Both the position numbers and the translations under genes were made by a program. From assembly GCF_900167465.1 (NCBI RefSeq), contig NZ_FUWR01000025.1, positions 1 through 37,372 on the forward strand: a stretch of 37,372 nt of DNA, given 5' to 3'. The notes below the pieces were generated by a model that did no database searches, had not been told where the DNA came from, and was given only the letters and a program-made list of their open reading frames with translations. This document shows positions 19,051 through 36,946 of this stretch, in pieces. Every line of letters starts with the position of its first letter. The stretch's first letter is position 1. Source of the stretch: Trichlorobacter thiogenes (lineage in GTDB: Bacteria > Desulfobacterota > Desulfuromonadia > Geobacterales > Pseudopelobacteraceae).

Positions 19051-19151
19051 AGGCCTTTTTGCGGTTATACCTGGGCTGGTAGGCTAACTTGTTTTATCCG
19101 TCTTTTATTTTGCTTTTGTGCATATATTCTACTGTCTGGAGGAAACAGGTT

Positions 19152-21938
19152 ATGAAAAAGACTGGTCTGATGTTGTTCTGTACTCTTATGGTGGTACTGG
19201 CAATGAGCGTGACAACGGTATTTGGAGGTGGAGGTAGCCCTCCGCTCACCTCGGCTTCTCCCTGGCCGGGGAATTTTCCGGCTGTGGAACAGACCATCAG
19301 CCTGTCATGTAATAGTTGCGACTCCACTCACTACTGTCTGGGCAGCGGCTGCACCAACTTTGCCACGTACAACAGCTCTATCAATCTTAACAGCTCGACA
19401 GTTCTCCGTTTTTATTCAGTCGGCCCTGCGGGAACGGAACCGGTCCGCAGTTATGATTACACACTGGATCCCAACCTTACATACAAGTCAACAGTCTATT
19501 GGCCCAGTGACAAAACTGCTTGGAGTTTTAACAACCCCCATGATCTTGCCATGAGCAGCGATGGTTCTGTTATTTACCTCTTGGATACCAATAATCACCG
19601 TGTACAGAAGTTTGACAGCAATGGCTATCTGATCCTGTCCTTCGGCAGTTACGGCAGCGGAAACGGCCAGTTTAAGGTCCCCAAGGGGATTGCCCTTTCT
19701 CGTGATAATGCCTACCTCTACGTGGCCGACACCAATAACAACCGGATTCAGGTGTTTGACAATAATGGTAGTTATATTAGACAGTTTGGTTCCTATGGTA
19801 GCGGAGATGGTAAATTACAATATCCAGAGGGGTTGAGCGTTGACAACAGCGGAAATGTCTACGTGGCAGATACTAATAATAATCGTGTTCAAAAATTCGA
19901 TAACAGCGGTGCATTTTCCCTTAAAATAGGTTCCTACGGTTCATCAAATGGCCAATTTAATGCTCCAGGCGCTGTGGCGTTGGACAGTAGCAACACTATC
20001 TATGTGGCTGACAGCTACAACAACCGTATCCAGAAGTTTGATGTAAACGGAGCCTATGTAGGCCAGTGGAACAGCCAGGGGTCTGCAGGCGGTAAACTGA
20101 GTAGCCCCATCCGCTTAACAGTGGATGCAAGCAACAATATTTATGTGTCTGACCTCTGGAATAATCAGATTCAGAAATTCGACACTACCGGAACGTATCT
20201 TGCCAAATACGGAACTCCCGGCAGCGGTGCAGGCCAGTTTGCGGCTCCCTATGGAATAGCCGTCAGCAGCAATGGGCGTATCTATGTTGCAGACAAAGAC
20301 AACCAGCGCCTTCAGGTCTTTAATATAGCTTATCCGGCTTCATCGCAGCTGTGGGGGACAACAGGCACTGATATCGGCAGCTTTTATGCTCCTTCAGCTG
20401 TGGCAGTTGATACAAACGGTAATCTGTATGTGGCTGATACCTACAATCATCGGATCCAGAAGTTTGACAGCAGTGGTTCATATCTTAATGACTGGGGCAT
20501 GATTGGATCTGGAGAGATGCAGTTTAATCAGCCCTTTGGAATTGCCGTTGATAGTTATGGGGCCATGTATGTGGCTGACACCCAGAACCATAGAATCCAG
20601 AAAATTAACAGTGACGGCAGCTATGGCGGCACCATAGGCAGTGCATTCAGCTATCCCAAAGGGGTGGCTGTTGACAGCAGCAATAATCTGTATGTGGCTG
20701 ATACTCGGAATAATCAGGTCAAAAAATATAGCAGCGCCGGCACACTGCTTCTTACGTTCGGCTCATTCGGCTCGGAGAACGGGCAGTTTTTCAATCCGGG
20801 TGGTGTGGCTGTTGACAATAGCGGCTCTATTTATGTGGCTGACACCTGGAATAATCGGATCCAGAAATTTGATGGCGCAGGTGCCCACCTCCTTTCGTTC
20901 GGTACAGAAGGTGCTGCAGCAGGTGACCTGAGTTTACCGGATGGTGTAGCGGTTGACGCTAATGGTATAGTCTACGTTGCTGATACCTATAACAACCGTA
21001 TCCAGACGTTTACCGGTAACGGCACCTTTATCAGCCAACTGTCCGTTGCAGGTTCAGGTGCCGGGCAGACATCCTGGCCTTCCGGTGTTGCAGTGGCTGC
21101 CACTGGTATGATGTATGTGGCAGATACCTATAACAACCGTGTCCAGAAGTTTGAGCCGTTGTCTGTGCCCGGCGTTCCGACCATAGGCACTGCCGTTGCA
21201 GGTAGTGCCCAGGCAACGGTCAGCTTCATGCCGCCATCTGCCACAGGTGGTAACCAGATCCTTTCCTATACCGTAACCTCCAGCCCCGGAGCCATCACTG
21301 GCACAGGCAGTGCAAGCCCCATAACCGTTAGCGGATTGACTAACGGCACCCCGTATACTTTTACGATTACCGCAATCAATGCTGTTGGTGCCGGTTCGGC
21401 GTCATCTGCATCAAATAGTGTGACACCGACTGATGGCACTAACAAGACCCTCACTCTCACCATCGCAGGCAGCGGGACTGGCACAGTCACCAGCGACCCG
21501 GCAGGGATAAGCTGCGGCAGCAGTTGCAGCGCGCAGTTCGCCACCGGAATGACAGTAACTCTCATCCCGTCAGCTTCAGGCTCTGACTTCAGCGGCTGGT
21601 CCGGCGCCTGCACCAATGCCAGCGGCAACTGCCTTGTTACCATGGATGCAGCCAAATCAGCCACAGCAACCTTTGATGTTCTGGATAACCTGCGTATCGG
21701 CAGCATCAGCTACGGTACTCTGAACAGTGCCTATAGTGCCGCCACAGCGGGGAGTGTCATTAAGATGCGTAACATTGATTTCATAGAAAGCCTGTTGTTG
21801 GGGGGAGGGTTTAGCTTGACTCTGCAGGGGGGCTATGCCGAAGGCTTTGGCAGCCGCAGCGGCTACACCGGCATTGATGGTACGGTAACCCTGAGCGAGT
21901 CCGGCACGGTGACCGTTGACGGGATTGTGATCAAGTAA
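19152..21938 (+). CDS. secreted NHL-repeat protein 1 (two six-repeat propellers, FN3, InlB-B-like)
   Basis: A 928-residue protein with a signal peptide (MKKTGLMLFCTLMVVLAMSV). The order is: a chitobiase/beta-hexosaminidase C-terminal-like domain (about 30-120, THYCLGSGCTNF); 12 NHL repeats (about 130-670, each with GVAVD..YVADT.NNRIQKF); an FN3 domain (about 672-762); a divergent InlB B-repeat-like domain (about 763-840, GWSGACTNASGNC); and a C-terminal module (about 846-928) shared with two other proteins in this window. Twelve NHL repeats suggest two six-bladed propellers. It is probably secreted or cell-surface, with a binding role; no enzyme motif is seen. The ATG has GGAGG nine bases upstream; a longer frame from 19089 is less likely. 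Confidence 0.9.
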   Translation: MKKTGLMLFCTLMVVLAMSVTTVFGGGGSPPLTSASPWPGNFPAVEQTISLSCNSCDSTHYCLGSGCTNFATYNSSINLNSSTVLRFYSVGPAGTEPVRSYDYTLDPNLTYKSTVYWPSDKTAWSFNNPHDLAMSSDGSVIYLLDTNNHRVQKFDSNGYLILSFGSYGSGNGQFKVPKGIALSRDNAYLYVADTNNNRIQVFDNNGSYIRQFGSYGSGDGKLQYPEGLSVDNSGNVYVADTNNNRVQKFDNSGAFSLKIGSYGSSNGQFNAPGAVALDSSNTIYVADSYNNRIQKFDVNGAYVGQWNSQGSAGGKLSSPIRLTVDASNNIYVSDLWNNQIQKFDTTGTYLAKYGTPGSGAGQFAAPYGIAVSSNGRIYVADKDNQRLQVFNIAYPASSQLWGTTGTDIGSFYAPSAVAVDTNGNLYVADTYNHRIQKFDSSGSYLNDWGMIGSGEMQFNQPFGIAVDSYGAMYVADTQNHRIQKINSDGSYGGTIGSAFSYPKGVAVDSSNNLYVADTRNNQVKKYSSAGTLLLTFGSFGSENGQFFNPGGVAVDNSGSIYVADTWNNRIQKFDGAGAHLLSFGTEGAAAGDLSLPDGVAVDANGIVYVADTYNNRIQTFTGNGTFISQLSVAGSGAGQTSWPSGVAVAATGMMYVADTYNNRVQKFEPLSVPGVPTIGTAVAGSAQATVSFMPPSATGGNQILSYTVTSSPGAITGTGSASPITVSGLTNGTPYTFTITAINAVGAGSASSASNSVTPTDGTNKTLTLTIAGSGTGTVTSDPAGISCGSSCSAQFATGMTVTLIPSASGSDFSGWSGACTNASGNCLVTMDAAKSATATFDVLDNLRIGSISYGTLNSAYSAATAGSVIKMRNIDFIESLLLGGGFSLTLQGGYAEGFGSRSGYTGIDGTVTLSESGTVTVDGIVIK

Positions 21939-22003: not shown

Positions 22004-22134
22004 TATTCAATTTGCTGATATATTTTGCTTTTTGGTAAAATACTGTAAATTGTGCGGGAAACTTGCTATAGGGATTCATGTCTTGAGGTATATGTCTCAT
22101 CAATACTATGTGTTTTGATTCTGGAGGGATAGTA

Positions 22135-25100
22135 ATGCAGCGATTGTTTTTGGCAGTATGGATGGTTCTTGCTCTTACGCTATTTACCGGTTTACATTCA
22201 CTTGCATCTGCAGAAGACCTTACCATTACCATTGTCGGCACCAACAGCGGCAGCGTAACGGTTAATAACGATACCTCAAAGGTCTGCAGTAGCGGTACCT
22301 GCACCTATAGCTTTTCCTACGGAGATTTACTGACATTGAAGGCCGCACCTACCGGGGCGTTTTTTGATGGCTGGTCCGGTACCTGTGCTGGAACCAATAC
22401 AAACTGTACGATTACAATGACTACTGACATAAGCGTTACCGCCAGCTTTACCCCGGTCCCGCCGCTGACCAGTCCAACCCCCTGGATGGGCAGCTATCCT
22501 GCGGGCCAGCAGGTGAGCCTTGCTTGCAGTGATGCTGCCGTATGCACCGGTACCAGCTACTGCCTTGGTGAAGGCTGCAGCCCGGCTATTGCATACAGTA
22601 GTCCGATCGTTTTCAGCGGAACCGGCAGCCAGGTGCTGCGCTTCCGTTCCACTGACAACCAGAATGCGGTAGAGCCGATCCGTACCCATCGCTATTATAC
22701 TGACAGTACATTTACCTATCGCTTTGACCGGCTTTGGCCTCAGTCTGAGCAGCTCTGGTATTTTCAGTCGCCCCGATCCATTGCCCTTGATGGGGATGGT
22801 AACATCTATGTGGCTGACACTGACAACCACCGGATACTGAAGTTTGATTACCGTGGCAATTTCATTGATCAATGGGGGCCGGTTGGATTCAGCTATCCAT
22901 CAGGCATTGCGGTGGATGGTAGCAATACAGTCTATATTGCGGATACCAGCAACAATACCATAAAAAAATACAGCTCTGATGGCAGCTACCTTGCCTCCAT
23001 AGGGGCGTTTGGCACAGGTCAGGGGCAGCTCAAGGGCCCTCGGGCTGTTGCTGTGGACAGCAGCGGTAATGTCTATGTGGCTGATACGGGCAATAACCGT
23101 ATCCAGAAGTTTGCTGCAAACGGTACGTTTCTCTGGCAGCTGGGGGAATCGGGCAGCGGCAACGGCCAGTTTAACCAGCCCCAGGGGATCAGTGTGGACA
23201 GCAGTGGCAGTGTCTATGTCTCTGACACCGGCAACAACCGGGTGCAGAAGTTTGTTGTCAGCGGAGATATCGTTGTCTACAGCACCCAATGGGGAAGCCT
23301 GGGCAGTGCTACAAATCAGTTGAATGCACCAGGCCAGATACATGCCAACAGTGACGGTATGATTTATCTGGCAGATAAGGGGAATAACAGGATTCTGGTG
23401 TTCAGTAACACCGGCGTGTATAGCGCTACCCTGGGGGCGAATGGACAGGGGGATGGGCAGTTCAGCTGGCCAATGGGGGTTGCAAAGGACAGTAAAGGCT
23501 ATGTCTATGTTGCTGATACTTCGAACGACCGGATTCAGCAACTGACAACAGCCGGATTGTTTATTAAACAGCTGGCAGTGGCAAGCAGCGCTGATGGAGC
23601 ATTTCGTTCACCTGTTGGTATTGCCCGTGATGCTTCCGGCAATTTCTATGTTGCTGATACCGCCAACCACAGGATTCAGAAGTTCAGCAGCAGTGGTGAC
23701 TTTGTGGCCAGCTGGGGCAGTTTTGGCAGTGGAGATCTTCAGTTCAGTTTTCCCAATGCTGTTGCTATTGATGCTTCCGGCCATATCTTTGTGGCTGATA
23801 CCCTGAACCACCGGATCCAGAAGCTGAACAGCAACGGCGTGTTTGTTGCCACTTGGGGCAGCTACGGAAGCAGTGGAACAGCCAAATTTGATCGTCCTTC
23901 CGGTATTGCCGTGGATAGTCAGGGCTTTGTCTATGTGACAGACCTTAACAACAAGCGGGTGCAGAAATTTACCAATGCTGGAGGGTATGATACTGAATGG
24001 GGCGGGGCAGGCTCTGGTGACGGAAAGTTTAATGCTCCACGGGGGATTGCGATTGACAGCAGTGATGCGGTCTATGTGGCAGATTCCGGCAATAACCGGA
24101 TTCAGAAATTTACCAACACTGGAGGCTTTGTTGCTGCCTGGGCTGGCTTGGTGTACAACCCGCACAGTGTTGCGGTTGGTGCAGACGGTAGCGTCTATGC
24201 CTCTGGACCTTCCACCAACAGCATCGTGAAAATTACCAGTAGCGGTCAGTTGAGCACAAGCTGGGGCTCATTGGGTAGTGGCAACGGCCAGCTCAATAAT
24301 CCGGGCGGTGTTATGGTGGACAACAGCAACAACCTCTATGTGGTTGATACGGATAATCATCGCATCCAGCGTTTTGCCCCGGTTCTGGTGCCCGGTGCGC
24401 CGACCATCGGCACGGCAACCGCCGGTAACGGGGAGGCTATCGTCAGTTTTGAAGCACCTGCAAATAACGGTGGTAATGTCATAACCTACTACACGGTGAC
24501 CTCCAACCCCGGCAACATAACTGCTTCAGACAGCGTCAGTCCAATCACGGTTACCGGACTGACTAACGGCACCGCCTATACCTTTACCGTGACGGCAACC
24601 AATGTGGCAGGCAGTGGTCAGGCATCGGCAGCCTCAAACAGCGTAACCCCTCTGCAGCCGACAGTTACCCTGGCGGTCTCACTACCGGCTGTTGTGGGGA
24701 ATGCGGGCAGCGGCAGCGTGACCAGCAATCCGTCCGGCATTGCTTGCCAAAGTGGTTCTTCTGCCGGCTGTAGCGCTTCCTTTGCACAAGACAGCAGTGT
24801 GGAATTAACGGCCTCGCCGAATGGCATTTCTCTCTTTGGCTCCTGGACAGGTTGTGCCTCTGTTAACCAGAATATCTGTACAGTTGAGGCAGATGCAAAC
24901 AAAACGGTTTCAGCCCTGTTTTTACTTTCGCCCAAGGCAAAGATCGGCGTTAATACGTTCAGCAGTTTTGATGCCGCCTACGATGGGGCAGGAGATAATG
25001 CGGTTGTACAGTTGCTTGAAGATGCCCTGCCGTTCAATCGTACCATCAATAAGCCGCTGACGCTGCAGGGGGGGCATCTTGCCGGTTTAGATAACCGTGG

Positions 25101-25206
25101 CAACGGGTTTACCACCCTTGAAGGGACGTCGTTAATTATCGGCAGCGGTAAGCTGGTTGCTGACCGGATTGTCATTAAAGGGGCTTCAACTGTTATTTTA
25201 GAGTGA
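22135..25206 (+). CDS. secreted NHL-repeat protein 2
   Basis: A 1023-residue paralogue of the proteins at 19152 and 29835. A signal peptide ends near LASAED. It alone has an additional InlB-B-like repeat at the N-terminus (about 24-110, GWSGTCAGTNTNC), followed by the chitobiase-C-like domain (about 112-200, TSYCLGEGCSP), 12 NHL repeats (about 208-750), FN3 (about 751-845), a second InlB-B-like repeat (about 850-930) and the common C-terminal module (about 935-1023). The ATG at 22135 is preceded by GGAGGG. It is likely a surface or extracellular binding protein; function is unknown. Confidence 0.9.
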   Translation: MQRLFLAVWMVLALTLFTGLHSLASAEDLTITIVGTNSGSVTVNNDTSKVCSSGTCTYSFSYGDLLTLKAAPTGAFFDGWSGTCAGTNTNCTITMTTDISVTASFTPVPPLTSPTPWMGSYPAGQQVSLACSDAAVCTGTSYCLGEGCSPAIAYSSPIVFSGTGSQVLRFRSTDNQNAVEPIRTHRYYTDSTFTYRFDRLWPQSEQLWYFQSPRSIALDGDGNIYVADTDNHRILKFDYRGNFIDQWGPVGFSYPSGIAVDGSNTVYIADTSNNTIKKYSSDGSYLASIGAFGTGQGQLKGPRAVAVDSSGNVYVADTGNNRIQKFAANGTFLWQLGESGSGNGQFNQPQGISVDSSGSVYVSDTGNNRVQKFVVSGDIVVYSTQWGSLGSATNQLNAPGQIHANSDGMIYLADKGNNRILVFSNTGVYSATLGANGQGDGQFSWPMGVAKDSKGYVYVADTSNDRIQQLTTAGLFIKQLAVASSADGAFRSPVGIARDASGNFYVADTANHRIQKFSSSGDFVASWGSFGSGDLQFSFPNAVAIDASGHIFVADTLNHRIQKLNSNGVFVATWGSYGSSGTAKFDRPSGIAVDSQGFVYVTDLNNKRVQKFTNAGGYDTEWGGAGSGDGKFNAPRGIAIDSSDAVYVADSGNNRIQKFTNTGGFVAAWAGLVYNPHSVAVGADGSVYASGPSTNSIVKITSSGQLSTSWGSLGSGNGQLNNPGGVMVDNSNNLYVVDTDNHRIQRFAPVLVPGAPTIGTATAGNGEAIVSFEAPANNGGNVITYYTVTSNPGNITASDSVSPITVTGLTNGTAYTFTVTATNVAGSGQASAASNSVTPLQPTVTLAVSLPAVVGNAGSGSVTSNPSGIACQSGSSAGCSASFAQDSSVELTASPNGISLFGSWTGCASVNQNICTVEADANKTVSALFLLSPKAKIGVNTFSSFDAAYDGAGDNAVVQLLEDALPFNRTINKPLTLQGGHLAGLDNRGNGFTTLEGTSLIIGSGKLVADRIVIKGASTVILE

Positions 25207-29834: not shown

Positions 29835-32609
29835 ATGAAACGACACCTTGTAACGCTAGCCATGCTGTATCTGCTGTTTCTTACGGTTCTTACGAGCCCT
29901 CAACCGGCAGAAGCGCTGGTAACCACTGCCACCCCCTGGATGGGCACCTATCCGGTTGGCCAGCAGGTCAGTTTAAGCTGCAGTGGTGGCTGTGATGGCA
30001 CTTACTATTGCCTGGGGGAGGGCTGTACCAACTATACCGCCTATACCGGTCCGATTACCCTGACTGAATCAACGGTGCTACGGTTTTATTCCGTGAGTAT
30101 TTTTGCTCCTGAAAATGTTCACAACTATCGCTATATCCTGGATCCGACACTGGCCTACCGTTTTGAACAGCTCTGGCCCAAACCGGAGCAGCCGCAGTAT
30201 TTTAATGGATCCCGAGGCGTGGCTGCGGATAGCAGTGGTAATGTTTATGTGGCAGATACTACAAACAACAGGATTCAAAAATTTAACAGTGCCGGTGCCT
30301 TTATTACGGCGTGGGGTAGTTTAGGCTCTGGGACAGGGCAGTTTGCATCCCCGTCTGGCGTTGCTGTTGATACAAGCGGGAATGTCTATGTGGTTGATCT
30401 AGGTAATAACCGGATCCAGAAGTTCAGCAGCGAAGGTGTATTTATTACTGCCTGGGGGACGCAGGGCAGCGCTGATGGTCAGTTTAACTATCCCTATGGG
30501 GCTGCTCTGGACAGCAGCAATAATCTCTATGTGGTTGATACCAATAATCACCGTATCCAGAAATTCAGCAGTGCTGGTGTCTTTGTTGCAAAGTGGGGCA
30601 GCCAGGGTAGTGGCAATGGCCAGTTTAATGCTCCCGGTGCTGTTGCCGTTGACAGCAGCAATGCTATCTATGTGGCTGACAGCTATAATCACCGGGTCCA
30701 GAAGTTCAACAGCAGTGGTGCCTACCAGAGTCAGTGGGGAAACAACGGCAGTGGAGACGGCCAGTTCAAGTATCCCCAGGGGATTACCATAGACAATACC
30801 TATAATGTCTATGTGTCTGACCGTGGAAATAACCGAATCCAGCAATTCACCAGTAGCGGTGGCTTCATCACTCAATGGGGAAGTTATGGTATTACCGACG
30901 GAACCTTTATCCAGCCTTGGGGCGTTGCCAGTGACAAGAGCGGAAACATCTATGTGGCTGATTCTAATAACAGCCGTATTCAAAAGTTTTACAATGGGTC
31001 ATTCACGGCCAGTTGGGGCTCTTTGGGCAGTGCAGACGGGCAGCTCTATAACCCCCTTGGTGTTACCAGGGATAGTAGTAATAATCTTTATGTGGTTGAT
31101 AACGTCAATCGCCGTATCCAGAAGTTTACCAGCAGTGGCGCCTTTGTTTCCAAATGGGGGGGATCAGGCAGCGGTGATGGGCAATTCGTCAATCCAGCCG
31201 GTATTGCAACGGACAGCAGTGGCAATTTCTATGTAACGGACCAGTACCTCAATCGTATTCAGAAATTCAGCAGTGCCGGTGTCTATGCAGCCCAGTGGGG
31301 AACAAGTGGTAGCGGCAATGGGCAGTTTAATCAACCCTATGGTGTTGCTACAGACAGCAGCGGAAATGTCTATGTGACAGACACCTATAACCACCGGGTT
31401 CAGAAGTTCAGCAGTGACGGCTCATTTCCGAAGGCCTGGGGAGCCCAGGGTAGTGGCCAGGGACAGTTCAGCTACCCCAAGGGGATTGCTGTGAGCGGCA
31501 GTAATATCTATGTGGTGGATGCTGGTAATAGCCGGGTCCAGAAATTTGATCAAAACGGTGGCTATGTCGCCGCATGGGGATATCCCGTCGTACCAATTAA
31601 TGCACCTTTTGATATCGCCGTTGATGCCGCTGGCAACATCTATGTCTCTTGTTCAGGGCCTGACAGTATTGTTAAGCTTAATAGTAGTGGTGAGTTGCTG
31701 ACAAAATGGGGAAAGCAAGGCAGTGGCAATGGTGAGTTTGTTAACCCCAGCGGTATTGTGGTTGCTACCGATGGTAATGTCTTTGTTGCTGATCAATCTA
31801 ATAACCGGATTCAGAAATTCAATCCTTTGGCCCTGCCAGGTGCGCCAACAATAGGATCAGCTGTTGCCGGTGATGCCCGGGCCACGGTCAGTTTTACGCC
31901 GCCTGCCAGTACCGGCGGTAATGCTATTATTACCTATACCGTTACCTCAACCCCCGGCAACAAGACCGGCAGTGGCACTGCCAGCCCGGTTGTTGTGACC
32001 GGCCTGACCAATGGCACTGCCTACACCTTTAGCGTTACTGCCACCAACGGGGTGGGTGTTGGTCCGGCTTCTGCAGCCTCCAACAGTGTCACTCCCATGC
32101 TCACTCAATACCTTGGCGTTTGTATTCCTACTGGTAACGGCACCTCAACCGGTACGGTCACCAGTAATCCTGTTGGTCTGACCTGTAATGTCGGCTGTTG
32201 TGATGTCGGATTCAATTACGGTACCAGTGTTACCCTGACTGCTACACCCAGCGCCGGTGGTTACCTGGCCAGCTGGGGCGGCGATTGTGGCGGCACCGGC
32301 CCCTGCACGGTTGTGATGACGTCTCAGAAATACGTTGCCGCCAATTTTACGCAACTGGATTACAGCCGGATTGATGGTAATCCCTACGGTACCCTGAATA
32401 TCGCCTATGCTGCAGCAACTGACCAGAAGGTGATCCAGGTGCGGGATCTGACCTTTACGGAAGATCTGACGCTGGACAAGAATATTGCCATTACCCTGGA
32501 GGGGGGCTACGGTACCTGGTTTGACAGCCGCGGCGGCTACACCACCCTGGATGGAAAGTTGACTATTGCCCAAGGGAGTCTGGTGGTGGATATGCTGGTT
32601 ATTAAGTGA
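29835..32609 (+). CDS. secreted NHL-repeat protein 3
   Basis: A 924-residue paralogue of the proteins at 19152 and 22135. A signal peptide (ending PAEALV) is followed by a chitobiase-C-like domain (about 29-110, TYYCLGEGCTNY), 12 NHL repeats (about 121-665), FN3 (about 666-760), an InlB-B-like repeat (about 763-838) and the shared C-terminal module (about 840-924). The ATG at 29835 has AAAGGAG eight bases upstream. It is probably cotranscribed with the di-iron MBL-fold gene. It is likely exported; the ligand is unknown. Confidence 0.9.
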   Translation: MKRHLVTLAMLYLLFLTVLTSPQPAEALVTTATPWMGTYPVGQQVSLSCSGGCDGTYYCLGEGCTNYTAYTGPITLTESTVLRFYSVSIFAPENVHNYRYILDPTLAYRFEQLWPKPEQPQYFNGSRGVAADSSGNVYVADTTNNRIQKFNSAGAFITAWGSLGSGTGQFASPSGVAVDTSGNVYVVDLGNNRIQKFSSEGVFITAWGTQGSADGQFNYPYGAALDSSNNLYVVDTNNHRIQKFSSAGVFVAKWGSQGSGNGQFNAPGAVAVDSSNAIYVADSYNHRVQKFNSSGAYQSQWGNNGSGDGQFKYPQGITIDNTYNVYVSDRGNNRIQQFTSSGGFITQWGSYGITDGTFIQPWGVASDKSGNIYVADSNNSRIQKFYNGSFTASWGSLGSADGQLYNPLGVTRDSSNNLYVVDNVNRRIQKFTSSGAFVSKWGGSGSGDGQFVNPAGIATDSSGNFYVTDQYLNRIQKFSSAGVYAAQWGTSGSGNGQFNQPYGVATDSSGNVYVTDTYNHRVQKFSSDGSFPKAWGAQGSGQGQFSYPKGIAVSGSNIYVVDAGNSRVQKFDQNGGYVAAWGYPVVPINAPFDIAVDAAGNIYVSCSGPDSIVKLNSSGELLTKWGKQGSGNGEFVNPSGIVVATDGNVFVADQSNNRIQKFNPLALPGAPTIGSAVAGDARATVSFTPPASTGGNAIITYTVTSTPGNKTGSGTASPVVVTGLTNGTAYTFSVTATNGVGVGPASAASNSVTPMLTQYLGVCIPTGNGTSTGTVTSNPVGLTCNVGCCDVGFNYGTSVTLTATPSAGGYLASWGGDCGGTGPCTVVMTSQKYVAANFTQLDYSRIDGNPYGTLNIAYAAATDQKVIQVRDLTFTEDLTLDKNIAITLEGGYGTWFDSRGGYTTLDGKLTIAQGSLVVDMLVIK

Positions 32610-33343: not shown

Positions 33344-34551
33344 GCAGCCAGCAGCGCTGCGATTTCCTGATCATCGGGGCCGGGATCATTGGTCTGGCCA
33401 TGGCCCGTGAGTTGAAGTCCCGTCTGCCTGCTGCCGATATCCTGGTGATTGAGAAGGAAGCAGATGTGGCCTACCACGGTAGTGGTCGCAACAGCGGTGT
33501 GCTGCATGCCGGGTTCTACTATTCGGCTGATTCATTGAAGGCCCGTTTTACCCGTGATGGTAACCGGATGATGACAGAGTATGTCAAGGATCGCGGTCTG
33601 GCCATCAACCCGTGCCACAAGGTGGTGGTGGCCTCGGATGAGAACGAGATTGAAGGGGTGCAGGAGCTACAGCGTCGCGGTGAGCGGAACGGCGTGGATG
33701 TGCGGATCATTGATGAGCAGGAGCTGGCAGAGATCGATCCCAATGCCAAGACCACCGGGATCGCGCTCTATTCTCCCACCACTGCCACGGTTGATCCGTC
33801 CCAGGTTTGTCATGCCCTGAAAGAGGATCTTGAAGTAGCTGGTGTCCGTTTTCTGTTTGGTCAGGGGTATTACCGTCGTGAAGGTAGAAACGCTGTGGTG
33901 ACCACCGGTGGCATGGTGTTGGAGGCTGGGCTGACCATAAACGCGGCAGGCCTGTATGCCGATACGGTTGCCCGTGATTACGGCTTTTCCAAGAACTACA
34001 CCATCATCCCGTTTAAGGGGATCTACCTGAAATACACCGGCACGGACAAGCCGATCCGCACCAATATCTATCCGGTGCCCAACCTGAAAAATCCGTTTCT
34101 GGGGGTGCATTATACGGTAACGGTGGATGGCACAATCAAGATCGGACCAACCGCCATCCCGGCCTTCTGGCGCCAGAATTATGTTGGGCTGGAGAACTTC
34201 AGTCTTGGTGAGCTGTTTGAGATCATCGGCTGGGAATCGCGCCTGTTTCTGGGGGATAACTTTGGTTTCCGCTCTCTGGCGCTGTCTGAGCTAAAGAAGT
34301 ATGACCGCAGCTACTTTACCGGTCTGGCGGTCAAGATGGTCAAGCAGATTGATACCCGTGGTTTCAACCAATGGAGCAAGCCGGGCATCCGGGCCCAGTT
34401 GCTGAACACCACCACCAAAGAGCTGGTGCAGGACTTTGTGGTGGAGGGTGACAGCCGCAGCGTGCATCTGCTGAATGCGGTTTCACCGGCCTTTACCTGC
34501 AGTTTTCCCTTTGCCGCCTGGGTGGTGGATCACTATATCCTGAAGCAGTAG
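33340..34551 (+). CDS. lhgO: L-2-hydroxyglutarate oxidase/dehydrogenase
   Basis: A 403-residue FAD-dependent oxidoreductase of the DAO family that converts L-2-hydroxyglutarate to 2-oxoglutarate, usually passing electrons to the membrane quinone pool. The FAD-binding dinucleotide fold is at the N-terminus ([11 protein letters not shown], Gly13-x-Gly15-xx-Gly18). The family signature [13 protein letters not shown] follows near residues 50-62. It overlaps trpG by four bases and its 3' end overlaps the convergent sbtM gene by 19 bp. The pairing with trpG is positional; I see no pathway link. Confidence 0.92.
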
Positions 34552-36089
34552 GGGTCTTTGCTGGTTAGCGGATCATGGCCAAAGCTGGCGGTTACGGCCA
34601 GGCAGCCTCCGCAGACCGGTTTCAGTTTACAACCGCTGCAGGCGGTTGAACCTTCCCGGTAGCGCTCTGCGGTTGCTGAACTATAGACCTCTTCAAGGCT
34701 TTGGCTGAGGATGTTACCGATGGGAGAAGGAAATTTGCGGCATGCATGCACCTCGCCATCGGAGAGGATGGCCACGAAGTTGAAGGCGGCACCACACCCG
34801 AATCCGGCACAGCCGCCGAACAATGGTTCGTCCCGGTCATCATAGATTGCGTTAAGCAGACTGTCTTTCAGTGCCAGTACCGGATGGGTCGGCATGGCTG
34901 CCACATACTGCTCAAGAAATGCCTTGTATTCCTCACGGGTGGGCAGGGCCAGCTGTGCTCCTTCGCCAAACAGGGCCAGGCGGTTGAAGGTTAGTCCGCC
35001 GGTAATTCCTTCCAGGACTTCAGCCAACGGGATGACCTGATCAAGATTGTTTCTGGTCAGGGTCAGCATCACCATGTTGGGCACCCCCAGCTCAGTCAAC
35101 ATTTCAAGAAATGCAATCGTCCGTTTGAAGTTACCTTCCCCCCGGATGCTGTCGTTATGCTCTTCAAGCCCTTCAAGACTGACCTGATAGTAGACCGGAC
35201 GCTGGATCGCCATAAGCTGCTCAATGTTGCTGCGTTCGGTGGCGTTCCCGAGGATGGCGATCATCAGGCCATGGTCAGCTGCCGCCTGATAGATCCGGAA
35301 AAAATCCGGATGCAGGAGTGGGTTGCCGCCGCTGAACGAAACCTGGGGCCGTACAAAGCGGCTCCAGCAGAAATCACGCAGTTCCTGCATCAGGGTGACG
35401 GCGCGGTCAAACGGGAAGGCTGCCCGCTGGCTGCGGTCATAACAATGCTTGCAGGATAGGTCGCAACTCTGGGTCAGATGCCACTGCAGGGTGAAGACCT
35501 CAGCCGCAACGAAACGTTTGTCAACCGCCTGTGATGCAATCGCCAGAGTACGGCGCAGACGTGACACCGGTGCCAGCAAGACCCCTTTGCGCACCGCATC
35601 CCACAGCACGGCATCGAACAGTGCAATTGGCTGATCTGCCTGCCGCGCCGCCTCCTCCGGGGTGATCCCTTCGGTCACCATCTTCAATGCCAGCAGGTGG
35701 TCCGGCAGGGCTGTTTCAAATCGCAGATTCCTGTTTGTTGGATCAGACCAGATCAGCACCAGCTCTTCACCCGGCTCAACCCGTTCCATATCCTGCTTTT
35801 TGGCAAAGGTCAGCAGGGTCAGCAGGTGTGTCCAGGGAACCGGCAGCAGTTGTAGTGAAGGGTTGATGGTCAGGGTCTGCAGCTCTTCAGGCTGGGATAG
35901 CGGAATATTCATGGCCCGGTGACAGCCCAGCTCCAGTCGGGCCAGGTCCGGCAGCCATTCCGGGTGGGTCAGGCCGGCCACCTTTTCCAGTTGGGCAGGT
36001 ACGGTCTCAGGATCAAGCTCCTGCAAGGATTTGCCGATCAGACGATTCCAGGCATCCTGTCCCAGCAGTTTTCGAGTCGTAGGGAAAAT
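34533..36089 (-). CDS. sbtM: radical SAM/SPASM peptide maturase, SbtM type
   Basis: A radical SAM enzyme that would modify the two precursor peptides encoded just upstream. The 4Fe-4S/SAM motif is CDLSCKHC (Cys209, 213, 216 in a 518-residue numbering), followed by SFSGGNPLLHP and QVSLEGLEEHNDSIRG. The C-terminal SPASM region is cysteine-rich (CAGFGCG, CRKFPS, CSGCKLKPVCGGC) and should hold auxiliary clusters. The N-terminal about 190 residues may bind the leader peptide. I match it to the SbtM group proposed for Geobacter selenocysteine/cysteine RiPPs. No ATG, GTG or TTG exists at the natural 5' end. GGAGG (36096-36100) sits six bases before an ATT at 36089, giving FPTTRKLLGQDAWNRLIG, clearly coding. 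A TTG at 36026 would lose 21 residues. Confidence 0.85.
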   Translation of the reverse strand: MFPTTRKLLGQDAWNRLIGKSLQELDPETVPAQLEKVAGLTHPEWLPDLARLELGCHRAMNIPLSQPEELQTLTINPSLQLLPVPWTHLLTLLTFAKKQDMERVEPGEELVLIWSDPTNRNLRFETALPDHLLALKMVTEGITPEEAARQADQPIALFDAVLWDAVRKGVLLAPVSRLRRTLAIASQAVDKRFVAAEVFTLQWHLTQSCDLSCKHCYDRSQRAAFPFDRAVTLMQELRDFCWSRFVRPQVSFSGGNPLLHPDFFRIYQAAADHGLMIAILGNATERSNIEQLMAIQRPVYYQVSLEGLEEHNDSIRGEGNFKRTIAFLEMLTELGVPNMVMLTLTRNNLDQVIPLAEVLEGITGGLTFNRLALFGEGAQLALPTREEYKAFLEQYVAAMPTHPVLALKDSLLNAIYDDRDEPLFGGCAGFGCGAAFNFVAILSDGEVHACRKFPSPIGNILSQSLEEVYSSATAERYREGSTACSGCKLKPVCGGCLAVTASFGHDPLTSKDPYCFRI

Positions 36090-36180: not shown

Positions 36181-36522
36181 TTACTTGGCGCTCCCGGCGC
36201 CGGTTGAGCCACCTCAACCACTTGAACCTCAACCACTGCCGCCCGGCTTTGGTGCCGGTTTTTCTGCAGGCTTGTTCTTTGCAGGCTTTTTGTCATCCGG
36301 GGTCTGCTTGCCATCTTTGTCTTTGGGGGTCTCGGCGCTCCCGGCACCGCTTTTACCGCCTCAGCCACTTGTGCCGGCTTCCTTCTTCGGGGTGCTCCCG
36401 GCACCCTCCTTACCGCCTCAACCACTCGCGCCCTGGGCGTTGAACGGAACTACCGCCATGCCTGCAACGAGGCTGGCGATGCCCATTCCTGCCAGGATGG
36501 ACTTCAACCGGTCCTTCTCCAT
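36181..36522 (-). CDS. sbtA: selenocysteine-containing RiPP precursor with four in-frame TGA codons
   Basis: A 113-residue frame from ATG at 36522 (AGGAGG six bases upstream) to TAA at 36181, interrupted by TGA at residues 35, 54, 98 and 103. Every TGA falls where the sister precursor has Cys: SGUGG, SGUGG, SGUGS, SGUGG. The leader (about 1-31) reads RLKSILAGMGIASLVAGMA, like the sister's leader. The core alternates SGUGG blocks with linkers rich in Lys, Pro and Gly. Each TGA is followed by a hairpin suited to a SECIS. The maturase gene starts about 90 bp downstream. A normal gene call would stop at the first TGA (34 residues). It is a known in-silico family (SbtA); the mature product, thought to bear thio/selenoxazole-type changes, is not something I can read from DNA. 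Confidence 0.88.
36186..36202 (-). promoter_or_regulatory. SECIS-like hairpin for TGA codon 103
   Basis: GGCGC/GCGCC around the same CGGGA loop (core 36187-36201). The 17-nt window begins 11 nt after TGA (36214-36216) and ends just before the TAA stop codon. Confidence 0.75.
36202..36219 (-). promoter_or_regulatory. possible SECIS-like hairpin for TGA codon 98
   Basis: GGTTGAG/CTCAACC is a perfect 7-bp stem around GTGG, starting 9 nt after TGA (36229-36231). Its loop differs from the other three and it contains TGA codon 103. Codon 98 may instead share the downstream hairpin. Confidence 0.5.
36333..36349 (-). promoter_or_regulatory. SECIS-like hairpin for TGA codon 54
   Basis: CGGTGC/GCGCCG, with one G-U pair, around the same CGGGA loop; 17 nt long and again exactly 11 nt after its TGA (36361-36363). 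Confidence 0.78.
36390..36406 (-). promoter_or_regulatory. SECIS-like hairpin for TGA codon 35
   Basis: In the mRNA sense, GGGTGC/GCACCC pair perfectly around the loop CGGGA. The 17-nt element begins exactly 11 nt after TGA (36418-36420), the spacing of bacterial SECIS elements bound by SelB. Confidence 0.78.
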
Positions 36523-36573: not shown

Positions 36574-36601
36574 ATTTTAGCAATAGTATCCCGCTTGTCA
36601 A
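36574..36601 (-). promoter_or_regulatory. strong sigma70-like promoter of the selenocysteine precursor
   Basis: On the - strand, TTGACA (36596-36601), a 16-bp spacer and TAAAAT (36574-36579). The predicted transcript starts about 45 bases before the ATG. The Sec precursor and sbtM can thus be transcribed separately from the Cys precursor. Confidence 0.6.
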
Positions 36602-36616
36602 ATCGTCTTGACCAAT

Positions 36617-36946
36617 TTACTGCTTGGGAGGTGTAGCAGGCTTTGCTGCGCCGCCGCATCCGGATGCTCCACCGCAGCCGCTGGCCCCTTTGGGCGGGGT
36701 TGGTTGCTCAGATTGTGGCTTCTTCATGGCTCCGCCGCAGCCACTTGCACCATTGTTTTCATGTTTTGCGCATTTGGGGCATTTTTTCATGCCGCCGCAG
36801 CCGCTGGGGCCCGACTCTGTAGTCGGCTTTCCGTTTTCTTTAGGAGTTGCCGGTGCTGTTTCGGCAGCTGAAACTGATGCCATACCGGCAATGAGCGTGG
36901 TGATACTGAGACCGGCCAACAGGTTGCGCATGGAGTGATGCTGCAT
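36617..36946 (-). CDS. sbtA: cysteine-type RiPP precursor with four SGCGG motifs
   Basis: A 109-residue peptide whose leader (NLLAGLSITTLIAGMASVSAAE) matches the Sec precursor's. The core carries four SGCGG motifs with Cys50, 70, 91 and 97, and one CPKC pair (Cys56, Cys59), separated by Lys/Pro/Gly-rich linkers. The repeated Cys-Gly-Gly sites are likely targets of the radical SAM maturase. The ATG at 36946 has AAGGA eight bases upstream; an earlier in-frame start at 36988 is unsupported. The leader is hydrophobic and ends in an AxA-like site, so export by a signal-peptide route is a second possibility. It is first in the - strand cluster, with the Sec precursor about 95 bp downstream. Confidence 0.86.
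   Translation of the reverse strand: MQHHSMRNLLAGLSITTLIAGMASVSAAETAPATPKENGKPTTESGPSGCGGMKKCPKCAKHENNGASGCGGAMKKPQSEQPTPPKGASGCGGASGCGGAAKPATPPKQ

Follow-up and report, generated by a model that had tools for sequence, protein, structure and literature searches.

The closest described relative of the locus reported here is the SbtA/SbtM system of Lewis et al. (2021), in which a ribosomally synthesized and post-translationally modified peptide (RiPP) carries thio(seleno)oxazoles; it is cited in PMC13188914 and PMC12668002 and described in PMC11002830. According to the passages of PMC11002830 available to us, SbtM was assayed on both cysteine (Cys) and selenocysteine (Sec) substrates, and the thiooxazole was identified by nuclear magnetic resonance for the Cys product. 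The family model TIGR04081 appears in a 2026 review (PMC13188914, likewise seen in part) as 'Selenobacteriocin', with SGUG and the number 2, taken as Sec per protein. In this study, we analyzed a 37,372-nucleotide stretch of Trichlorobacter thiogenes DNA (contig NZ_FUWR01000025.1 of assembly GCF_900167465.1, positions 1 to 37,372, hereafter the window), which contains an sbtA precursor gene with four in-frame TGA codons beside an sbtM gene, and we compared this locus with the known system and its analogs.

Peptides with the same heterocycle are produced by multinuclear non-heme iron-dependent oxidative enzymes (MNIOs). These bufferins or captophorins, which include oxazolin, fontiphorin, gonophorin, and bulbicupramide, are 5-thiooxazole peptides that generally bind copper, in so far as the passages seen describe them. 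In the parts of the following papers available to us, MNIO-PME1 clusters yield 5-thiooxazoles whose products generally bind Cu, and modified SbtMa shows the same absorbance at about 305 nm as such 5-thiooxazoles (PMC12668002); PME-type 1 partners accompany signal-peptide precursors, and some bufferins are predicted lipoproteins (PMC12452194). About 16% of Buf2 are predicted lipoproteins, and signal-peptide precursors occur in several bufferin families. For the RiPP recognition elements (RREs) associated with DUF2063, signal peptides of the general secretion pathway stand in for a recognition motif (PMC12710340). Where SbtM is mentioned in the available passages of PMC12668002, PMC13097082, and PMC12538549, it is for the spectra of its product only.

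The precursor region of the window has the following features.

36181..36522, minus strand: sbtA, precursor gene whose 113 codons include four TGA in frame, predicted to encode Sec (TIGR04081; orthologs)
36427..36522, minus strand: N-terminal leader resembling an export signal, with K/R, a hydrophobic stretch, and then NAQGAS (sequence; family statistics)
36418..36420, minus strand: TGA, predicted Sec codon 35 (TGA in 8/8 aligned Trichlorobacter-group genes, window included)
36361..36363, minus strand: TGA, predicted Sec codon 54 (TGA in 8/8 aligned Trichlorobacter-group genes)
36229..36231, minus strand: TGA, predicted Sec codon 98 (TGA in 6/8 aligned genes; codon absent in 2)
36214..36216, minus strand: TGA, predicted Sec codon 103 (TGA in 7/8 aligned genes; codon absent in 1)
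36574..36601, minus strand: promoter-like site TTGACA-16-TAAAAT between the Cys sibling and sbtA (consensus match only)
36617..36946, minus strand: all-Cys sibling precursor of 109 amino acids with four SGCGG sites and CPKC (sequence; six Trichlorobacter-group loci)

An earlier note, made from the sequence alone, had proposed sbtA as a RiPP precursor gene invisible to normal gene calling, and re-reading gave the same frame, which runs on the minus strand from ATG at 36522 to TAA at 36181. Its TGA contexts are SGUGG, SGUGG, SGUGS, and SGUGG, corresponding to SGCGG sites in the neighboring precursor. The strong Shine-Dalgarno sequence that had been pointed out is AGGAGG, 6 nucleotides ahead of the ATG, and the promoter matches the consensus at 11 of 12 positions with TG before the second hexamer. 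The peptide scored 39.3 bits against TIGR04081 (cut-off, 30.5), and the adjoining radical S-adenosylmethionine (SAM) gene passed the SbtM model TIGR04082 with 700.9 bits (cut-off, 350), so that SG-(U/C)-G sites stand beside an sbtM gene. One claim of the note was too strong: four Sec in one peptide had been called exceptional, whereas 4 or 5 U occur in 11 of the 85 non-redundant precursors that a leader-profile survey collected (109 hits in 80 named loci and further loci), although in three of these 11 (L095, L109, and L116) the last U is possibly the stop codon. The gene, while correctly read, is also less new than had been thought, the SbtA family being already modeled by NCBI. The note had also treated the chemistry as inference, which is right for this precursor, whose modification is predicted, and too cautious for SbtM itself, in view of the assays mentioned above. 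Because at least four TGA codons were found in 15 of the 74 window frames of 80–200 amino acids that are open when TGA is read as U, the number of TGA codons was left unused as evidence; sbtA is the only one of those 15 frames with at least two G-U-G contexts. The source genome groups with Trichlorobacter; genome G274 of the same genus contains the contig of Trichlorobacter sp. MAG11, identical in sequence, and the four-Sec SbtA of another genome of the genus, G262, differs from that of the window at two residues, the DNA being about 89–90% identical in the aligned pieces. Judged by its sequence, 36522–36181 on the minus strand is a selenopeptide precursor gene of a known, partly characterized kind.

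Decoding of UGA as Sec requires a dedicated machinery, and all four components that the earlier note had named for checking, selA, selB, selC (tRNA-Sec), and selD, were found in the source genome. The scores were 609.5 bits for selA, 331.5 bits for selB (361.9 with neighbors), and 76.2 bits for tRNA-Sec; two selD matches were found, both with an in-frame TGA. One selD lies on C20 and has one in-frame TGA, and the second, at G000:C37:64619-65453, is in two pieces, the first of which has the in-frame TGA. Downstream of each sbtA UGA, starting after 8–12 nucleotides, lies a hairpin of the bacterial selenocysteine insertion sequence (bSECIS) type, as found by a fold search that required a G within the first two loop positions; the loop CGGGA is common to three of them.

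36390..36406, minus strand: hairpin of UGA 35, GGGUGC CGGGA GCACCC (fold search; family covariation)
36333..36349, minus strand: hairpin of UGA 54, CGGUGC CGGGA GCGCCG (fold search; family covariation)
36201..36220, minus strand: hairpin of UGA 98, whose stem includes UGA 103 (fold search)
36187..36201, minus strand: hairpin of UGA 103, GGCGC CGGGA GCGCC (fold search; family covariation)

UGA 98 and UGA 103 are five codons apart, and their signals overlap. When the gene was randomly recoded for the same amino acids, an equally good hairpin arose in 21, 82, 25, and 38 of 1000 recodings for the four UGAs, and in 72, 1000, 398, 1000, 871, and 1000 of 1000 at the sibling's six Cys codons. Family-wide, a hairpin at −5 kcal/mol or better follows 176 of 196 U sites, some of which are a final U and possibly stops, versus 9 of 79 core Cys sites. 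Among the 35 sites with equal spacing, stem pair 4 is C-G in 19, U-A in 14, and U-G in 2; cells with two-sided changes numbered 24 versus 9.1 after shuffling, with a covariation score of 0.317 versus 0.144. Stem pairing fell from 97% to 55% or less once the partner was shifted by 1 to 3 columns. Words of the type GA(G/V) follow 100 of the 196 U and none of the 79 core Cys, and are likely to be the amino-acid trace of the RNA hairpin. Since the relatives share ancestry and are not independent, these counts overstate the number of independent events. One result weighs against the hairpins as decoding signals: taken singly, those of the window are unremarkable against dinucleotide shuffles. Two coarser covariation measures were no better than shuffles (reached by 377 and 108 of 500), and an Rfam scan of the locus gave three chance-level matches and no credible selenocysteine-insertion or other family.

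The frame beyond the TGA codons is conserved, as the earlier note had proposed to check: after the first TGA, 9 of 11 changes relative to G262 and 17 of 25 relative to locus L031 fall at third positions. The exchange of TGA for Cys codons, also foreseen, was borne out at the level of the family, where Cys replaces Sec in genomes lacking selA, but not among the closest orthologs, because TGA is retained wherever the codon exists in the eight aligned genes. Whole precursors with Cys only occur in six loci (L074, L075, L078, L098, L121, and L125). None of these six genomes has selA, versus 37 of 39 genomes with a Sec-containing SbtA (p = 3e-6), a comparison that covers 46 of the 80 named loci (Sec-precursor loci left out include L102, L104, L105, L114, L128, and L132), omits L060, uses corrected assignments for L101 and L075, and counts as Sec cases the doubtful L101, L122, and L124, all three with selA. 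Likewise, tRNA-Sec above the cut-off was found in none of the six all-Cys genomes, in four of the six Sec genomes tried (L093, L096, L109, and L115, not L106 and L118), and in that of L060, genome incompleteness being a caveat on individual absences of selA and tRNA-Sec. Across the class, co-occurrence of SbtM and selA gave no signal (p = 0.32), because most genomes of the class have selA. Taken together, the UGAs of sbtA are almost surely Sec codons, and with the Sec/Cys exchange and the covarying hairpins this assignment is about as firm as sequence data allow.

SbtM of the window has the following parts.

34533..36089, minus strand: sbtM, radical SAM/SPASM maturase with a probable ATT start at 36089 (TIGR04082)
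35568..36089, minus strand: N-terminal DUF2063-RRE-like module with the predicted fold of MNIO partners (hhalign with controls; Foldseek; VIA)
35028..35477, minus strand: radical SAM domain, CxxxCxxC (PF04055)
34626..34796, minus strand: SPASM domain (PF13186)

The protein shares 92% identity with the T. lovleyi protein that bears the name SbtM (93.7% for that of G262), and T. lovleyi is reportedly the species from which the assayed enzyme came. The apparent ATT start is preceded by GGAGG at 6 nucleotides and recurs at the same codon in L031, L032, and L060; in the sister loci L033 and L034 this codon is ATG, and the database T. lovleyi protein begins later, at MGQDAW. In comparisons by hhalign, Foldseek, and VIA, approximately the first 176 residues of SbtM showed homology to the DUF2063-RRE protein that partners MNIO enzymes. 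Because radical SAM chains filled the full-length VIA alignment, this module was folded by itself. Its match to 3dee extends over 161 residues and the profile match over 169 columns, the helical part being covered too, so that fold and profile homology both span the whole module; DLARLE.A words occur in both consensus sequences, and the PDB matches at E ≤ 0.001 were MNIO-partner structures only. Residues 1–199 scored 12.4 bits against the Pfam DUF2063 signature (cut-off, 27.2), and a sequence-based search of solved structures found only SkfB at E ≤ 0.001 with A1 and nothing credible with A3. No MNIO (PF05114) and no DUF2063 gene was found in the 146 genomes of the class that were searched (of 277), the source genome included, and DUF2063 was found in 11 of 395 genomes of the phylum. 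Among the open-access matches listed, the passages available link SbtM neither to DUF2063 nor to MNIO partners and do not mention the sibling, and likewise show neither hairpin covariation nor family-wide export signals for SbtA/SbtM; the original SbtM publication and the in silico paper of 2011 lie outside that search and may hold earlier remarks. What is new here is the reading of SbtM, from its sequence and predicted fold, as a fusion of an MNIO-partner-like module with a radical SAM enzyme, together with the testable role that would follow.

The survey recovered precursors from 69 of the 80 named loci, which come from metagenome-assembled genomes titled Geobacteraceae, Desulfobacterales, Nitrospirae, Acidobacteria, and others. 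Precursors with 0 to 5 U number 12, 2, 31, 29, 10, and 1, respectively, counts in which L101 (counted as having no U, with a TGA in ATPUGG) and L075 (counted as having one U, likely a stop) are mis-binned. The leader profile found no precursor in L057, L058, L071, L080, L087, L091, L100, L107, L111, L127, and L133, although in L107 a precursor is truncated at the contig end; L057 and L058 (G271 and G264) have SbtM genes of about 545 bits and no SbtA precursor in the stretches read. By a rule-based test, K/R followed by a hydrophobic stretch characterizes 85 of 85 precursors versus 170 of 871 other open reading frames (ORFs), partly by construction, and a lipobox, under one rule for both sets, is present in 30 of 85 versus 18 of 871. 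In the 49 precursors that lack a lipobox-type Cys altogether, a loose rule finds AxA-like sites. The SbtA leader looks like an export signal, and since no neighbor is common besides SbtM (no other cluster of ORFs of at least 70 amino acids is represented in over 12 of the 80 loci, the clusters being unannotated and many loci short), general secretion would be the simplest route.

The all-Cys sibling, just upstream of sbtA, was found in six Trichlorobacter-group loci (L027, L031, L032, L046, L049, and L052). With 22 bits it falls below the TIGR04081 cut-off and is counted as a sibling precursor rather than a model member, and its ortholog in G266 passes with 31.0 bits. At L060 (G273) the sibling is the only precursor found and lies directly before SbtM, which suggests that SbtM may act on it too; a Cys substrate works with SbtM in vitro, according to the passages seen (PMC11002830).

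Elsewhere in the window, a contig-end-cut IS200-type transposase gene (PF01797; 37162–37371, plus strand) lies just upstream of the sbt locus, and three large proteins (19089–21938, 22108–25206, and 29835–32609, plus strand) carry repeats such as VAVDSSGNVYVADTNNNRIQKF, which on visual inspection resemble NHL repeats.

We propose, with a probability of roughly 70%, that the four hairpin-tagged UGAs of sbtA are read as Sec, that SbtM oxidizes these residues to selenooxazoles, and that the product is an exported metal-binding peptide. What we observe is the sequence itself, the hairpins with their covariation, the Sec machinery, the exchange of Sec and Cys, and a module of SbtM that is homologous to MNIO partners; we infer decoding in vivo, modification of this SbtA peptide, export, and metal binding. 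SelB and Sec-tRNA would probably decode the UGAs by means of the hairpins, and the N-terminal, DUF2063-RRE-like third of SbtM would bind the SbtA leader while the radical SAM/SPASM part, removing four hydrogens per residue, converts the U or C of every SG-(U/C)-G site to a 5-thio(seleno)oxazole. The leader would have a second role, either as a signal peptide or, among many of the relatives, as a lipobox, placing the mature peptide in the periplasm or on the membrane, where its array of thiol/selenol heterocycles may bind soft metal ions as the 5-thiooxazoles of bufferins and captophorins do. The sibling would be the sulfur version for SbtM. MNIOs need oxygen, and under anoxia the radical SAM enzyme would do what an MNIO does elsewhere.

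Other explanations account for parts of these observations. That the TGA codons are real stops, in a gene that has decayed or that encodes a short leader peptide, would agree with TGA as a stop in table 11, and a peptide of 34 residues would result; with a frame conserved past the TGAs, covarying hairpins that are common at U sites and rare at Cys sites, Sec machinery in the genome, and Cys exchange in genomes without selA, we regard this explanation as having a negligible chance. It is also very improbable that the SbtM N-terminus is a generic RRE that was reached independently and whose likeness to MNIO partners has no functional bearing, because the match extends across the entire module together with its helical part, and DLARLE.A is found in both consensus sequences.

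As to function, the label in the 2026 review, of which we saw part, would make the mature peptide a selenobacteriocin released to act on competing bacteria. We find this improbable: among the neighbors (unannotated ORF clusters, many of the loci being short), no gene for export, a protease, or immunity is conspicuous, and a lipobox in 30 of 85 leaders is ill-suited to a diffusible toxin. Redox or selenium handling, in which Sec acts as a scavenger of peroxide or electrons, or the peptide as an exported selenium store or sink, with the heterocycle tuning reactivity, fits the presence of several Sec in a small, likely exported peptide. We nevertheless consider it unlikely, since a selenium store would not persist in an all-Cys form in six genomes without selA, oxazole formation would presumably consume the free selenol redox couple, and the DUF2063-RRE-like module points toward metal-binding thiooxazole peptides. 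The exported metal-binding peptide is the reading that we prefer. Beyond it, we see even odds that one DUF2063-RRE module, which holds the substrate in bufferin fashion, serves two unrelated catalysts, MNIO and an anaerobic radical SAM enzyme, which make the same 5-thiooxazole on exported peptides, and that Sbt represents an anaerobic captophorin branch in which sulfur is upgraded to selenium. Its product would then be a selenooxazole metallophore, either anchored by a lipid or located in the periplasm, and Trichlorobacter would have an all-Cys version to pair with it. If this is true, a single recognition module would lead to one product by way of two unrelated catalysts, and the SbtM module would offer a domain for testing how precursors with a signal peptide are retained until their modification. 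The literature passages available report no tested function for Sbt peptides, and the MNIO-partner homology supplies a testable one.

Among known systems, the ACGX radical SAM system (TIGR04340) is the second-best NCBIfam model for SbtM (156.4 bits; cut-off, 400), but its model of 341 positions matches only from SbtM residue 200, and therefore without the N-terminal module. TglHI of the 3-thiaglutamate pathway differs in its chemistry and in having TglI as a separate MNIO subunit. The known SbtA/SbtM system shares its precursor and maturase families with the locus of the window, which is a new sequence in the genus and has an all-Cys sibling. With the bufferins and captophorins, Sbt shares the 5-thiooxazole formed from Cys, the apparent signal-peptide-type layout of the precursor, and a DUF2063-RRE-like partner module; it differs in that its catalyst is a radical SAM/SPASM enzyme instead of an MNIO, the module is fused, Sec takes the place of Cys, and metal binding is predicted. 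On this analogy, the reading of Sbt that fits best is that of a bufferin counterpart which is anaerobic, can use selenium, and has a putative role in metal binding.
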